64,000 bases of DNA from Pseudolabrys sp. FHR47 (GTDB taxonomy: Bacteria; Pseudomonadota; Alphaproteobacteria; Rhizobiales; Xanthobacteraceae). A program made the translations under genes and the position numbers. The notes beneath the pieces are model-generated. The model was not told the origin of the DNA and ran no database searches. It saw nothing but the letters and a program-made list of their open reading frames with translations. Shown piece after piece: positions 3,956-20,776 of the stretch (positions within the stretch are counted from its first letter, which is position 1; every line of letters begins with the position of its first letter). The stretch is taken from the NCBI RefSeq assembly GCF_005153485.1, contig NZ_CP039740.1, forward strand, positions 2,669,001-2,733,000, written 5' to 3'.

Positions 3956-5173
3956 TTAGCGCCGGTTGGCCAGCGGAACGACGTTGTGAAGCTGCGTCGG
4001 CGCCGTCTCAAGGAATTTCTTGATGTTGCGAGCGGCCTGGCGGATGCGCTGCTCGTTCTCCACGAGCGCGATACGCACAAAGCCTTCGCCGCGCTCGCCA
4101 AAGCCGGTGCCGGGCGACACGGCGACCTCAGCCTTCTCGACCAGCAGCTTGGCGAATTCGACCGAACCCATATCGCGGAACGGCTCCGGAATCGGCGACC
4201 ATGCGAACATCGAGGCGGTTGGCGGCGGCACGTCCCAGCCGGCGCGCGAGAAGCTTTCGACCATCACGTCGCGGCGCTTGGTGTAGATCGAGCGCATTTC
4301 GCGCACGCAATCGTCCGGCCCATTGAGCGCTGCCGCGGCCGCAACCTGGATCGGGGTGAAGGCGCCATAGTCGAGATAGGACTTCACGCGGCCAAGCGCC
4401 GCGATCAGCCGGTCGTTGCCGACGGCAAAGCCCATGCGCCAGCCGGCCATCGAGAACGTCTTGGACATCGAGGTGAACTCGACGGCAACATCGATCGCGC
4501 CGGGCACCTGCAGCACGGACGGCGGCGGGTTGTTGTCGAAGAAGACCTCGGCGTAAGCCAGATCGGACAGGATGAAGATCTCGTGCTTCTTCGCGAAGGC
4601 GACGAGGTCTTTGTAGAAATCGAGGCTGGCGACGAAGGCAGTCGGGTTCGACGGATAGCAGACGACAATGGCGATCGGCTTCGGGATCGAATGCCGAATG
4701 GCGCGCTCGACCTGATTGAAGAAATCCGGCGTCGGATCGGATGAGACCGAGCGGATGACGCCGCCGGCCATCAGGAAGCCGAAAGCGTGAATCGGATAGC
4801 TCGGATCGGGCACGATGATGACATCGCCGGGCGCGGTGATGGCCTGCGCCATGTTGGCGAAGCCTTCCTTGGAGCCAAGCGTGGCGACGACCTGGGCGTC
4901 GGGATTGAGCTTCACCCCGAAGCGGCGCTCGTAATAGGCGGCCTGGGCGCGGCGCAGGCCCGGAATACCGCGCGAGGCCGAATAGCGGTCGGTGCGCGGC
5001 TTGCCGAGCGTTTCCTTGAGCTTGTCGAGAACGTGCTGCGGCGCCGGCAGGTCCGGATTGCCCATGCCGAGGTCGATGATGTCGGCGCCGGCGTTCCTGG
5101 CCTTGGCCTTGGCGCGGTTCACCTCTTCGAACACGTAGGGCGGCAGGCGGCGGATGCGGTAAAATTCTTCCAT
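3956..5173 (-). CDS. PLP-dependent class I/II aminotransferase (AlaC / LL-DAP aminotransferase-like)
   Basis: 405 residues from the ATG at 5173. Fold-type I aminotransferase: the N-terminal substrate loop (IIDLGMGNPDLPAPQHV), the tyrosine-proline region PDPSYPIHAFGF, the DLAYAEVFFD aspartate, and the PLP-binding lysine in SMSKTFSMAGWR are all present. It most resembles the AlaC/YfdZ and LL-diaminopimelate aminotransferase group, which uses glutamate/pyruvate or related amino donors. It is placed directly in front of hom (gap of four bases), as in many Rhizobiales, which suggests a role linked to the aspartate family of amino acids; the exact substrate cannot be read from sequence. Confidence 0.9.
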   Translation of the reverse strand: MEEFYRIRRLPPYVFEEVNRAKAKARNAGADIIDLGMGNPDLPAPQHVLDKLKETLGKPRTDRYSASRGIPGLRRAQAAYYERRFGVKLNPDAQVVATLGSKEGFANMAQAITAPGDVIIVPDPSYPIHAFGFLMAGGVIRSVSSDPTPDFFNQVERAIRHSIPKPIAIVVCYPSNPTAFVASLDFYKDLVAFAKKHEIFILSDLAYAEVFFDNNPPPSVLQVPGAIDVAVEFTSMSKTFSMAGWRMGFAVGNDRLIAALGRVKSYLDYGAFTPIQVAAAAALNGPDDCVREMRSIYTKRRDVMVESFSRAGWDVPPPTASMFAWSPIPEPFRDMGSVEFAKLLVEKAEVAVSPGTGFGERGEGFVRIALVENEQRIRQAARNIKKFLETAPTQLHNVVPLANRR

Positions 5174-5244
5174 CGTTCTCGGACCTTGGCTGGAGCCTTA
5201 AGCCGCCCTCTCCGGCTGGCCTTGGAAACCCCGGCTGGCTTTTA

Positions 5245-5646
5245 TCACGGGTTCGTTTTTGCGCCAGTGGCCTGCCCCGATTTCGGGGCCTTCGCGTCCT
5301 TTTTTGCCGGCTTTTGCGTCTGCGGCGGCGTGGCGGGAGCGTCAGGGTCCGCCGCGGTCTTTTCCTGCTGGTCGCGCAAATTCTGGAGGTCCTGCTGGAG
5401 CCTCAGTTGTTCGGCATCGTCGAGCGGCTTGGTACTCCGGGCGGCCGGGGTGTCATAAACGCCGGGATAGGAATAGGGCTTGTCCGGCCGGGCCGGCGCC
5501 GCCTGCGGCAGCCCGCCCATGGAGTGCGGCAACTGATCGCCCATGCCGCCCGCGGCGCAGCCTGACAACGCCAGTTGGGTCATCAGCGGTACCGCAATGG
5601 CCAGCAGCAACGATGATGGCCGCCATCCTCTCTCAATAGACCTCAT
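5245..5646 (-). CDS. Small lipoprotein with disordered C-terminus
   Basis: 133 residues from the ATG at 5646. The N-terminus has a positively charged start (MRSIERGWRPSS), a hydrophobic stretch, and the lipobox LALSGC, so it is expected to be lipidated on that cysteine and held in the envelope. The mature part is rich in Pro, Ala, Gln and Lys, with a short coiled-coil-like stretch (DDAEQLRLQQDLQNLRDQQE) and no known enzymatic motif. An in-frame ATG at 5670 and a TTG at 5709 are alternative starts; 5646 is preferred because it gives a normal signal-peptide n-region and has GAGG upstream. Function not recognised. It is transcribed away from phaC. Confidence 0.75.
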   Translation of the reverse strand: MRSIERGWRPSSLLLAIAVPLMTQLALSGCAAGGMGDQLPHSMGGLPQAAPARPDKPYSYPGVYDTPAARSTKPLDDAEQLRLQQDLQNLRDQQEKTAADPDAPATPPQTQKPAKKDAKAPKSGQATGAKTNP

Positions 5647-5712
5647 CCAGACCTCGGCCCGTCGCTGCATTGCAGAAAGGCGATTGCCAAAAAAGCGACG
5701 CAGACTCAATGA

Positions 5713-5741
5713 ATTATAGCATAAGGCTGTTAACCGGCTAA
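5713..5741 (-). promoter_or_regulatory. Candidate sigma-70 promoter for the lipoprotein gene
   Basis: On the minus strand a perfect -10 hexamer TATAAT (5713-5718) is preceded by a 17-bp spacer and a weak -35 (TTAGCC, 5736-5741). It would start transcription about 60 bases before the ATG at 5646. The weak -35 keeps confidence low. Confidence 0.4.
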
Positions 5742-16522: not shown

Positions 16523-18592
16523 ATGGCCAAATCCGCAACGAACAAGAAGACCGGCAAGCAGAACGACCTGTTCGCCGCCCCCGCCCGCCAGGCCGCCGCC
16601 CGTCCCGCGCCGAAGGAAGCCGCGCGCAAGGCGTCGAAAGCGAGCGGCGGCGATGGCGGCTACAGCGCCAAGGACATCGAGGTTCTCGAGGGTCTGGAAC
16701 CCGTCCGCCGCCGTCCCGGCATGTATATCGGCGGCACCGACGAGAAGGCGCTGCACCACCTGTTCGCCGAAGTCATCGACAACGCAATGGACGAGGCGCT
16801 GGCCGGCCACGCCGACTGGATCGAGGTCGAACTCGATGCCGACGGCTTCTTGTCCGTGACTGATAACGGCCGCGGCATGCCGATCGACAACCACCCCAAG
16901 TTCAAGAACAAGTCGGCGCTCGAAGTCATCATGTGCACGTTGCACGCCGGCGGCAAATTCGATTCCAAGGTCTATGAGACCTCCGGCGGCCTGCACGGCG
17001 TCGGCGTGTCGGTGACCAACGCGCTGTCGGAGCGGCTGGAAGTCGATGTCTGGCGCGAGCAGACCCAGTACCGCATGGCGTTCGAGCGCGGCAAGCCGAA
17101 GGGCAAGCTCGAGAAAGTCGGCCGCGCACCTAACAAACGCGGCACCCGCGTGCGCTTCAAGCCCGACCCGGAAATCTTCGGCAAGAAGGCGGCGTTCGAT
17201 CCGGCGCGCGTCTTCAAGATGGCGCGCTCGAAAGCCTATCTCTATGGCGGCGTCGAAATCCGCTGGTCCTGCGATCCTTCGCTGGTCGAAGGCACCGACA
17301 TTCCGGAGAAGGCCACGTTCCACTTCGAGAACGGCCTCGCCGATTATCTGCGCACCAATCTCGAAGGCGCGACCTTCGTGCACCCCGACATCTTCTCCGG
17401 CTCGTCGGGCAAGGCCGGCAAACATGGCGCGGTCGAGTGGGCGGTCGCCTGGACTGCGGACGCCGACGGCTTCACCAATTCCTACTGCAACACGATCCCG
17501 ACGCCGGATGGCGGCACGCATGAATCCGGCCTGCGCTCTGCCCTGCTCCGCGGCCTGAAGGATCACGCCGCGCGCATCGGCCAGGAAAAGCGCGTCGCGC
17601 CCGTGACCAGCGAAGACATCATGGTTGGCTCGGGCTCGATGCTGTCGGTCTATGTCCGCGAGCCGGAATTCCAGGGCCAGACCAAGGACCGCCTCGCCAC
17701 CGCCGCCGCGCAGAAGATCGTCGAAAGCGCGATCAAGGATCCGTTCGATCACTGGCTGTCGGGCAATCCGCTGCAGGCCAACAAGCTGCTCGATTTCGTC
17801 ATCGAGCGCGCCGAGGACCGCCTGCGCCGCCGCGCCGAAAAGGACATCGCGCGCAAGACCGCGGTGCGCAAATTGCGCCTGCCCGGCAAGCTCGCCGACT
17901 GCTCCAACACCGCCGAGCAAGGCTCCGAACTGTTCATCGTCGAAGGCGACTCGGCCGGCGGCTCGGCCAAGCAGGCGCGCGATCGCAGGACGCAGGCGGT
18001 GCTGCCGCTACGCGGCAAAATCCTCAACGTCGCCTCCGCCGGCAAGGACAAGCTGGCGCAGAACCAGCAGCTCGCTGATCTCATTCAGGCGCTCGGCTGC
18101 GGCACCGGCTCGCATTTCAGCGAGAACGATCTTCGCTACGAGAAGATCATCATCATGACCGACGCCGACGTCGACGGCGCGCATATTGCTTCGCTCTTGA
18201 TCACGTTCTTCTACCGGCAGATGCCGAAGCTGATCGATCTCGGGCGGCTTTATCTCGCCGTGCCGCCCCTCTTCCGCCTGCAACACGGCGGCAAGATCGC
18301 CTATGCGCGCAACGATGCGCACAAGGATCACCTGCTCAAGACCGAGTTCAACGCCAATGCCAAGGTCGAGGTCTCGCGCTTCAAGGGCCTTGGCGAGATG
18401 ATGGCGGCGCAGCTCAAAGAGACGACCATGGACCCGAACAAGCGCACCCTGCTCAAGGTGACGCTGGCGCATGAGGACGAGAAGGCCACTGAGAAATCCG
18501 TCGAGCGCCTGATGGGCAACAAGGCCGAAGCGCGCTTCGAGTTCATTCAGGAGAAGGCGGAGTTTGCGAGCGAGGAGTTGTTGGACGTTTAG
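16523..18592 (+). CDS. parE: DNA topoisomerase IV subunit B
   Basis: 689 residues from the ATG at 16523. The GHKL ATPase region runs from about 50 to 270 ([35 protein letters not shown]), the transducer follows, and the TOPRIM domain carries the [20 protein letters not shown] and [10 protein letters not shown] motifs. The sequence ends in the GyrB/ParE C-terminal block (RFKGLGEM). The short spacer between NTPase and TOPRIM and the lack of a GyrB-type insertion favour ParE over GyrB. The N-terminal 45 residues are Lys/Ala-rich and unconserved, usual for alphaproteobacterial ParE. parC is not in the window. Confidence 0.95.
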
Positions 18593-18610: not shown

Positions 18611-20221
18611 ATGGCAAACGATCTTAGGGAGCCAAGAGCCAGCGCAGCAAAAGTTGCATATCACCAAAATCAACTCTTGAAATTATTTTCCCGGGCCAAC
18701 GACGCCGCATTCCTTCAGATGATTTGGGCCACCGACGCCCTCCAATCGGGTCGGGAGCGTCACGCCAAGCGATATCTTTTGGCATACCCTCCTGAAGCCG
18801 TAGCGGAGTCATCTCTTAGATCTAATTTCGGAATCCATCGATGGGAACTGGAAACGCTGCTCGTGCAGTTGTTTTTAGTACCGAAAGAACTTCCTCGGGA
18901 AACAGGCAATTTAACTCTCGACTGTTCGAAATTTGAAGCCATCCGTCAAACGATAAACCGCCTGCGTTCTCTCGAGAATGTCGAGGCGGCCCGTTACCTG
19001 AGTGGTGAATTCACCATTTGGGCCGAAATGAACAGGATTGCGCAGCGGCAATTTCATTGGCAGCGCGGGTATTTCAACACACCACAATTCTATAGGTACG
19101 CCTATCTTTATGCACAAGGAAAGTGCGCGGAATACTTCAGACAAACGTATGGACTTGAAGTTTCCGATCTTATGTTCACCGGATTTAGCTTATTCACTGC
19201 ATACCTCAACAATCCGTGGATCCAGCGACAAACATCTGTTCCGGAGATGGGCCTCACCGAAGAAATCGTACAACGCGCATTTCCAATGTTGTCGTGCTCT
19301 CGAAACCAAGCCAGAGCCGAAACGGCGAAGCTCGTTGCCCATGCGCAGAATGATCACGGCTCTCCGATACCAACAGCGCTCTTGCCAAGCATACTTCGAA
19401 AATCACCTCTTATATATGTCGATGACGCTAACAAATTAGTGGCGCCGATTCCAGAAGCGATACTTCTTCGTGTCACTGCAGGATTATACTTCGACCTTCT
19501 CGCCGGAGGACAAGCTGTTATCAATGACGCTAACTCCCGTTTCGAACAATACTGCGCCGAACTTTTTGAAAAATTGATGAGGCAGTTCGGCGTCAAACGC
19601 GCTTACCGATACGGTGCCAAAGGAGCGCAATTTGACACGCCTGACATTCTAATCAAGGACGGCGATAAACTTGCAATCGTCGCGGAATGCAAAGCGACAA
19701 GATTGACGTATTTAGCACAGTTCGCAGAAGACCCATTTGAGGCTGCGAGGAAACAGTATTCTCAGATCGCCAAAGGCGTTTTTCAGCTATGGCGTTTCTT
19801 TGCACACATTCGTTGTGGTGTCGTGGAGGAGAAGCTTTCAAACGATTGCGCCGCGATGATTTTTACATTGGACGCGTATATGCAGATCGCAGAGGAATTG
19901 CAGAACAAAGTTCTTACCGAAGCCAATGCACTAGCCGATGCCGACGGAAATATCGAACAACAGGACCGCAAGCACATAATAATTTGCCCGATTTCCGACC
20001 TTGAATCTATCCTGACTACCTCGGACGAGATTTCATTACGAGAGTCATTGAAGGCTTCAAGTGAGCCTAAATATAAAGGCTGGATGTTAAATGAAGTACA
20101 CCGGAATACAGGCGCGACTGATCGTTTCGGCGCCCCGAAGCCGTTTCCATTCGACTTAGCCGACGTGCTTCCTTGGTGGAAAAAGATTGGCGAACTTCTG
20201 GATCAGCACCGCGGGAAGTAG
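18611..20221 (+). CDS. Uncharacterised protein with PD-(D/E)XK nuclease signature
   Basis: 536 residues from the ATG at 18611, only 18 bases after the parE stop and without a clear ribosome binding site. Not recognised as a named family. Residues 310-400 fit a restriction-endonuclease-like core: helix FEQYCAELFEKLM (311-323, Glu312), then TPDILIKDGDKLAIVAECKA with Asp345 and the Glu359-x-Lys361 pair, then a helix with Gln383 (KQYSQIAKGVFQLW). The first 300 residues look mainly helical with many aromatic residues (MNRIAQRQFHWQRGYFN; YAYLYAQGKCAEYF) and no motif I know; residues 255-290 (LLPSILRKSPLIYV) form a linker. No signal peptide or membrane segment. By eye the gene is far poorer in G+C than both neighbours and uses AT-ending codons freely, pointing to recent horizontal transfer. 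A stand-alone defence nuclease is one reading; nothing around it confirms a partner. Confidence 0.7.
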   Translation: MANDLREPRASAAKVAYHQNQLLKLFSRANDAAFLQMIWATDALQSGRERHAKRYLLAYPPEAVAESSLRSNFGIHRWELETLLVQLFLVPKELPRETGNLTLDCSKFEAIRQTINRLRSLENVEAARYLSGEFTIWAEMNRIAQRQFHWQRGYFNTPQFYRYAYLYAQGKCAEYFRQTYGLEVSDLMFTGFSLFTAYLNNPWIQRQTSVPEMGLTEEIVQRAFPMLSCSRNQARAETAKLVAHAQNDHGSPIPTALLPSILRKSPLIYVDDANKLVAPIPEAILLRVTAGLYFDLLAGGQAVINDANSRFEQYCAELFEKLMRQFGVKRAYRYGAKGAQFDTPDILIKDGDKLAIVAECKATRLTYLAQFAEDPFEAARKQYSQIAKGVFQLWRFFAHIRCGVVEEKLSNDCAAMIFTLDAYMQIAEELQNKVLTEANALADADGNIEQQDRKHIIICPISDLESILTTSDEISLRESLKASSEPKYKGWMLNEVHRNTGATDRFGAPKPFPFDLADVLPWWKKIGELLDQHRGK

Positions 20222-20254: not shown

Positions 20255-20776
20255 CTACCCACACCTCCTCAACACCGCCGTCCTCGCCCCGCTGCGCACC
20301 GCCACGCCGCTCTTCACCCGCACGCCGTCCTCACCGCGGTTGAACATGGTGCGCCGCGTATCGACGCCCTTCTTGTCCTTCGCAATACGCAGCACCAAGG
20401 TCTGCGTCTCCTCGCCCTCGGTGCCGGGGCGGAACAGCGCCCGCGCCTCAATCAAGTCCTTGCCGGCGCGCGCCGCGGCAACGACGTGATAGAGATTGGG
20501 CGCGAAGTCCGGCCCGACATCGTGGCTCTCGACGATCAGCCCGCCGCCCGGCGCGGTGACGCCGACATGCGGGTTCATCGGCGACGCCGGTCTGTCGCAG
20601 GCCACCGCCCAGGTCCCCAGCAGATTGAAGTCGCGGAACACGGGCTCGGCGGTGAATTGCGGCGTCGCGAGTGTCCCCGGCTCGGGCGCCGGATCGGTCG
20701 CGGCACGCGCTGTCAGGACGGCGGCGGACATGAGAGACAGCGCCGCGATCAGCGACAACACCGCGAACCGTTTCAT
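20255..20776 (-). CDS. Secreted protein of unknown function
   Basis: 173 residues from the ATG at 20776. A classical signal peptide (MKRFAVLSLIAALSLMSAAV) with likely cleavage after TARA leads to a compact domain of about 145 residues with two cysteines (in WAVACDRP and at the very end, LRRCG) that could form a disulfide. I believe similar conserved hypotheticals exist in Bradyrhizobium but cannot name a family. It lies between the AT-rich nuclease-like gene, which is convergent, and an ICMT-like gene on the same strand. Confidence 0.75.
   Translation of the reverse strand: MKRFAVLSLIAALSLMSAAVLTARAATDPAPEPGTLATPQFTAEPVFRDFNLLGTWAVACDRPASPMNPHVGVTAPGGGLIVESHDVGPDFAPNLYHVVAAARAGKDLIEARALFRPGTEGEETQTLVLRIAKDKKGVDTRRTMFNRGEDGVRVKSGVAVRSGARTAVLRRCG

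Follow-up and report, generated by a model that had tools for sequence, protein, structure and literature searches.

Behind parE in Pseudolabrys sp. FHR47 lies a single gene whose product is probably a standalone, trigger-activated antiphage nuclease, distantly related to GapS1 and carrying a PD-(D/E)XK core behind a helical half. The gene lies in a 64,000-nucleotide stretch of contig NZ_CP039740.1 (positions 2,669,001 to 2,733,000, termed here the window) from a 4.5 Mb genome (G000), and had been picked out there from the letters alone as a possible single-gene defence nuclease, referred to below as the original prediction. The antiphage reading is based on the relationship to GapS1, the invariant residues D345 and K361, a restriction-endonuclease-like model, patchy presence, foreign composition, occupied versus empty insertion sites and defence genes near homologues. 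From sequence comparison the protein most likely represents a divergent sister group of GapS1, centred on Alphaproteobacteria, and not a new mechanism or kind of system, and we use the name "GapS1-like" because its score lies under the family's own cut-off.

An Intact Gene of Foreign Composition

The gene (Table 1) is an uninterrupted open reading frame (ORF) of 536 codons with an ATG start on the + strand, beginning 18 bp after the parE stop codon at 18592, the spacing given originally. Most of the 120 homologue clusters listed are of about the same length and most of 22 aligned homologues begin within about a dozen residues of the window protein, so the frame proposed in the original prediction is real. 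Its G+C content is 0.487, whereas the window as a whole has 0.638 and parE 0.643, and among 624 gene-sized sliding windows the lowest value is that of this gene, all 10 windows below 0.53 overlapping it; the gene is thus, as had been claimed, poorer in G+C than both flanks. A promoter scan returned no sites, with 1.6 expected by chance.

Table 1. Positions in the window of the GapS1-like gene, its predicted parts and the genes that flank the insertion site.
Feature	Positions	Strand	Basis
GapS1-like single-gene putative antiphage nuclease, 536 aa	18611..20221	+	ORF; NCBIfam NF047931; hhalign; model pLDDT 89.9
Predicted helical N-terminal half, residues 1-300	18611..19510	+	secondary structure of model; conservation; Upx structural match
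Predicted PD-(D/E)XK nuclease core, about residues 301-480	19511..20050	+	conservation; model; structural match
Predicted C-terminal helical extension, about residues 481-536	20051..20218	+	model
parE, left flank of insertion site	16523..18592	+	ORF; parE 92-95% identical in 6 closest relatives
173-aa convergent gene, right flank of insertion site	20255..20776	-	without Pfam match

Relationship to GapS1

The NCBIfam model antiphage_GapS1 (NF047931) matches residues 106-471 of the window protein with an E-value of 8.1e-19. In a diverse homologue alignment of 26 members (A3), 24 match the same model and no other NCBIfam model at E up to 0.01. The model itself finds a match in 11 of 398 genomes, three of them over the cut-off, and five proteins from this search (three over and two under the cut-off) were aligned as A2. 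Comparison of A2 with A3 by hhalign gave a probability of 98.8% and an E-value of 1.3e-16 across 393 columns, with the D and (D/E)xK of both alignments in register, and shuffled and reversed controls reached at most 5.1%; homology to GapS1 therefore extends over most of the length. GAPS1 is organised as a single gene, and the subfamily shares this feature, no neighbour family being common to more than 4 of 20 loci. GAPS1 was reportedly first described by Mahata et al. in 2024. One part of a conference report states that Klebsiella pneumoniae GAPS1 protects against many phages (PMC12908700), and an excerpt of the Phold paper lists GAPS1 as a defence system (PMC12774648); because GapS1 is reported as antiphage, a defence role is supported for the window protein as well.

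No Pfam family matches the window protein over its own cut-off. DUF234 (E 0.022) lies below the cut-off, and the matches of some members to FMN_dh or HSDR_N are weak or partial; neither was used.

Several results weigh against the antiphage reading. The match to NF047931 reaches 67.8 bits where the curated cut-off is 320, the hhalign probability is 77.6% with a narrower homologue set (A1), and a profile built from A3 finds two of the five A2 proteins and misses L065, L068 and L069, one of which is over the cut-off; function may therefore have diverged from that of GapS1. PADLOC-DB 2.0.0 assigned no family to the window protein at E up to 10, and the literature searched held no phage assay of this GapS1-like subfamily. 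The neighbours in the window look like housekeeping ORFs (judged by eye, without a PADLOC scan), and at L058, L059 and L070 a KefC, HrpB or adenine-deaminase gene lies within 7 kb of the homologue.

Predicted Structure and Conserved Residues

The AlphaFold model (pLDDT 89.9) contains a restriction-endonuclease core; it supersedes an initial model from 22 sequences with a poor N-terminal half, for which a BFVD search gave nothing under 0.001. In the model, a helix at 301-322 bearing E312 is followed by D345 and a strand at 346-350, a strand at 353-361 with E359 and K361, a helix at 380-401 with Q392 and a strand at 409-419. Conservation was counted in an alignment of 65 proteins (A8), in which D345 and K361 are each kept in 65/65, position 359 is E or D in 65/65 (53 E, 12 D) and E312 is kept in 63/65. 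A D and a (D/E)xK on adjacent strands, by which the PD-(D/E)XK superfamily is recognised, thus appear both in the predicted model and in the conservation, and we predict that the window protein carries a nuclease core of this type. The original prediction had placed these four residues correctly, and the restriction-endonuclease-like core it proposed is borne out by the model, the conserved D/E/K residues and the structural neighbours. Its Gln383 was an error, as position 383 holds Tyr and the nearby Gln residues are 382 and 385; the Gln that is strongly conserved in helix 380-401 is Q392 (63/65), and F or Y occupies position 396 in 54/65.

The N-terminal half, described originally as helical and unknown, is indeed helical in the model. 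It is not an orphan, because it is common to GapS1-family proteins and Upx-like in structure. We infer that residues 1-300 form a regulatory or recognition part. Five residues of this half, R142, Q147, W150, Q151 and R162 (window 19034-19096), are each kept in 59-63 of the 65 proteins.

Residues 1-476 of the model superpose on 753-1272 of Upx, likewise a defence protein (9wuf), at a root-mean-square deviation of 8.7 Å, a value that may reflect two halves differently set in the two proteins. A PDB sequence search gave no match to Upx at E up to 10; with A1 it returned no match, and with A8 it returned 18 weak matches (best E 0.12) among which were neither Upx nor a nuclease. The link to Upx is thus a structural one, taken from the predicted model. 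Upx is tabulated under nucleic acid degradation in one part of a published source (PMC10855318).

Among the 50 structures listed as matches of the model, the top neighbours are mostly restriction and nicking enzymes, which fits the main alternative, a type IV-like restriction enzyme that would cut modified or foreign DNA directly, without a trigger protein, its helical half reading the DNA. Type IV enzymes are expected to lack a methyltransferase partner, and a methyltransferase is not a conserved partner of the homologues. On the other side, no Pfam domain, and so no known modified-base reader, exceeds its cut-off, and the helical half finds its match in Upx among those same 50 structures. 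Taken together, we consider direct restriction of this kind unlikely.

The preferred reading, a trigger-activated nuclease, would work as follows. The helical half would keep the core inactive until a phage cue appears, a cue which this half may itself recognise, and the activated core would then cut DNA, either that of the phage or DNA of any origin, in which case the infected cell would be lost. A nuclease silent until cued is proposed because neither a methyltransferase nor any other fixed partner is present to shield host DNA from an always-active enzyme.

Distribution and Neighbours of the Homologues

Counting the window's own genome, 2 of 60 relatives carry a homologue, and across the order 9 of 397 genomes do. 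A protein search at E up to 0.001 found at least 239 clusters, of which 120 were listed, and all listed clusters whose source name is legible are designated hypothetical. Of the 27 homologues on plasmid records, 19 are alphaproteobacterial, the 13 best matches being among these. Phage records held no match to the window protein, and 55 stretches of viral contigs that fit a pattern included no relative of it. The copy of Oceanibaculum pacificum (L024:4164-5714) is divided over two ORFs (4164-4655 and 4899-5714), either a broken gene or an assembly error.

Defence genes had been expected near homologues, and a neighbourhood survey found them at several loci, though not at every one. On annotated plasmids, the homologue of L073 has a reverse transcriptase, an ATP-binding protein and an S8 peptidase nearby, that of L074 a Gabija-like pair of AAA ATPase and ATP-dependent helicase, that of L075 a UvrD-type helicase with multiubiquitin and ThiF proteins and that of L080 five TIR-domain proteins. 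The Pseudomonas and Sphingobium plasmid stretches show no defence system by annotation; at the Sphingobium locus (L082) the AAA_15 ATPase directly upstream matches the AriA, Old and GajA models. Three more plasmid stretches carry no annotation. On genome contigs, a MmeI-like type IIG enzyme (L063) and a PDC-S49 protein (L060) lie nearby. The UvrD-type neighbour at L062 also matches PcrA/UvrD tudor and may be a housekeeping protein. SIR2/HerA, PDC-S26 and RT_UG20 models were matched in the bulk neighbour scan, with no locus assigned.

At E up to 1e-10, 141 + 233 PADLOC models were matched for 251 neighbours of 20 loci, against 3 + 5 for 225 control proteins of 20 stretches. The association with defence genes is strong in direction and yields no clean enrichment factor, because the counts are of models and not of proteins and one protein can match dozens (92 in one case, at E up to 0.001). 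The count took in 10 of the 27 plasmid records and left out L023 (no control), L064 (control contig of 2.7 kb), L024 (split copy), the parE-site copies, the GapS1-family loci L065-L069 and ORFs below 110 or above 1200 aa. Control positions were chosen manually, and for G299 and G544 they lie on a different contig of the genome concerned; as L057 and L077 share their surroundings the 20 loci amount to 19 independent ones.

The homologues have no fixed partner gene, since the commonest neighbour cluster (its L074 member annotated as a LysR-type regulator) occurs in 4 of the 20 loci and the next, a UvrD-type helicase, in 3.

Two further settings were seen. In a Thioclava plasmid the homologue (L079:8992-10548) adjoins an S24-family gene, with GemA and transposase genes of a transposable (Mu-like) type alongside, a setting which suggests carriage by Mu-like transposable phages. 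In Sinorhizobium meliloti pSymA a neighbour of the homologue (L078:15084-17618) matches the full length (1-845) of a solved 845-residue helicase-domain protein (10uj, 9yhn, 9ykj).

The parE 3' End as an Insertion Site

Among 40 same-genus genomes, 36 have a parE match and 30 parE loci were taken, the window's own included. In the 29 loci of relatives, a homologue of the 173-aa gene starts at most 150 bp from parE in 16 and 288-1269 bp from it in 4, and was not seen within the stretch taken in 8, one of these stretches being only 153 bp; the remaining locus, that of G032, has a copy of the GapS1-like gene. Four of the five closest relatives without the gene (L027-L030, parE 94-95%) have the native genes 32-426 bp apart. 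Such closeness of the native genes bears out the proposal that the gene was acquired singly, and it is not fixed at the site, most close relatives being without it.

The fifth of these relatives, G033, has 1.87 kb (52.4% G+C) between the native genes, including a 272-aa ORF that belongs to no known family, and at the G022 site an AT-rich gene (L042:3658-4311) encodes a protein with matches to DUF2971 and to PDC-S31, a PADLOC candidate family. Because different AT-rich genes occupy it across relatives, the parE 3' end in Pseudolabrys seems to be a place where single AT-rich genes have landed repeatedly. The G033 orphan (L104:8156-8974) is itself AT-rich and without a Pfam or PADLOC match, and a 362-aa orphan of 55.6% G+C lies behind parE at L036:325-1413. 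By eye, the first 250 bp after parE in L031/L032 and L029/L030 are repeat-like and partly self-complementary, of at least two kinds, and may mark the site of exchange.

G032 has a 69%-identical copy at this site, separated from parE by 385 bp and with the 173-aa gene beyond it. Of 536 third codon positions, 314 differ between the two copies, whose synonymous divergence (dS) is not computable, against a dS of 0.34 (NG86) or 0.82 (YN00) for parE of the same two genomes. In a tree of homologues (480 aa) the window and G032 copies are not sisters, the node that joins them being weakly supported (0.535). These differences are better explained by two acquisitions at the site, or by one copy having been replaced, than by a single ancient insertion.

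Such apparently separate presence at one site in two Pseudolabrys genomes could also point to a mobile-element nuclease that moves its own gene into the parE 3' end and has no defence role, as could the integrase genes near the homologues of L071 (31 bp upstream) and L081. We hold this to be improbable, as the same site receives unrelated genes and the homologues elsewhere occupy many sites without a common partner, several near defence genes. A repair or replication nuclease tied to topoisomerase IV would account for the same-strand position 18 bp after parE; this is hardly credible and already disfavoured, given that 34 of the 36 same-genus genomes searched lack the gene, parE being present in most of them, that parE is not named beside homologues on annotated plasmids and that the gene is of foreign composition. 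The spacing had also led to the proposal of read-through from parE. The spacing and shared strand stand, and expression by this route is weakly supported, because the G032 copy is 385 bp from parE and elsewhere the upstream gene varies by locus, on the opposite strand in 6 of 19.

Significance

For the antiphage nuclease proposed here, the little-studied GapS1 kind is extended to at least 239 protein clusters, and since the conserved residues of both halves are now mapped across the group, mutants can be chosen at once. The Upx link offers a solved template for a half that formerly looked like an orphan, and the parE 3' end in Pseudolabrys appears as a small site at which single AT-rich genes land, among them one from a candidate defence family. 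A specialist may be most surprised by how large the unannotated group is, by the structural link to the C-terminal portion of Upx and by the landing site itself. Tentatively, and with more doubt than confidence, GapS1, its sister family centred on Alphaproteobacteria and the C-terminal portion of Upx might form a single mobile immune module that joins a phage-sensing helical half to a PD-(D/E)XK blade. This module would enter permissive chromosome ends, that of parE among them, as a lone gene and would have been built into the larger Upx, with a Qxx(W/Y/F)Q...R motif of the helical half as its switch.

Comparison with Known Systems

The effector nucleases Shedu SduA, NucC and Card1/Can2/Cdn1 have accessory domains that differ from the window protein, which has no PADLOC match to them; one of the 26 A3 members each matches the CARF_PDDEXK and Csx1 models, at E of about 0.02. 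Upx shares with the window protein a helical part and a nuclease core of the same fold, a likeness which in the model spans nearly the whole protein. However, Upx is a 1212-residue chain with a large extra N-terminal part, so the 536-aa protein does not have its full architecture. GapS1 comes closest: the five GapS1-family ORFs are 513-533 aa long, the helical half and the D...(D/E)xK core can be aligned over the 393 columns, and all four GapS1-family rows in A8 share Q147, Q151, R162, P266, D345 and K361 with the window protein. The two nevertheless differ in that identity in the profile alignment is 13%, W150 is replaced by F or Y in the four GapS1-family rows, and the group of the window protein is centred on Alphaproteobacteria.
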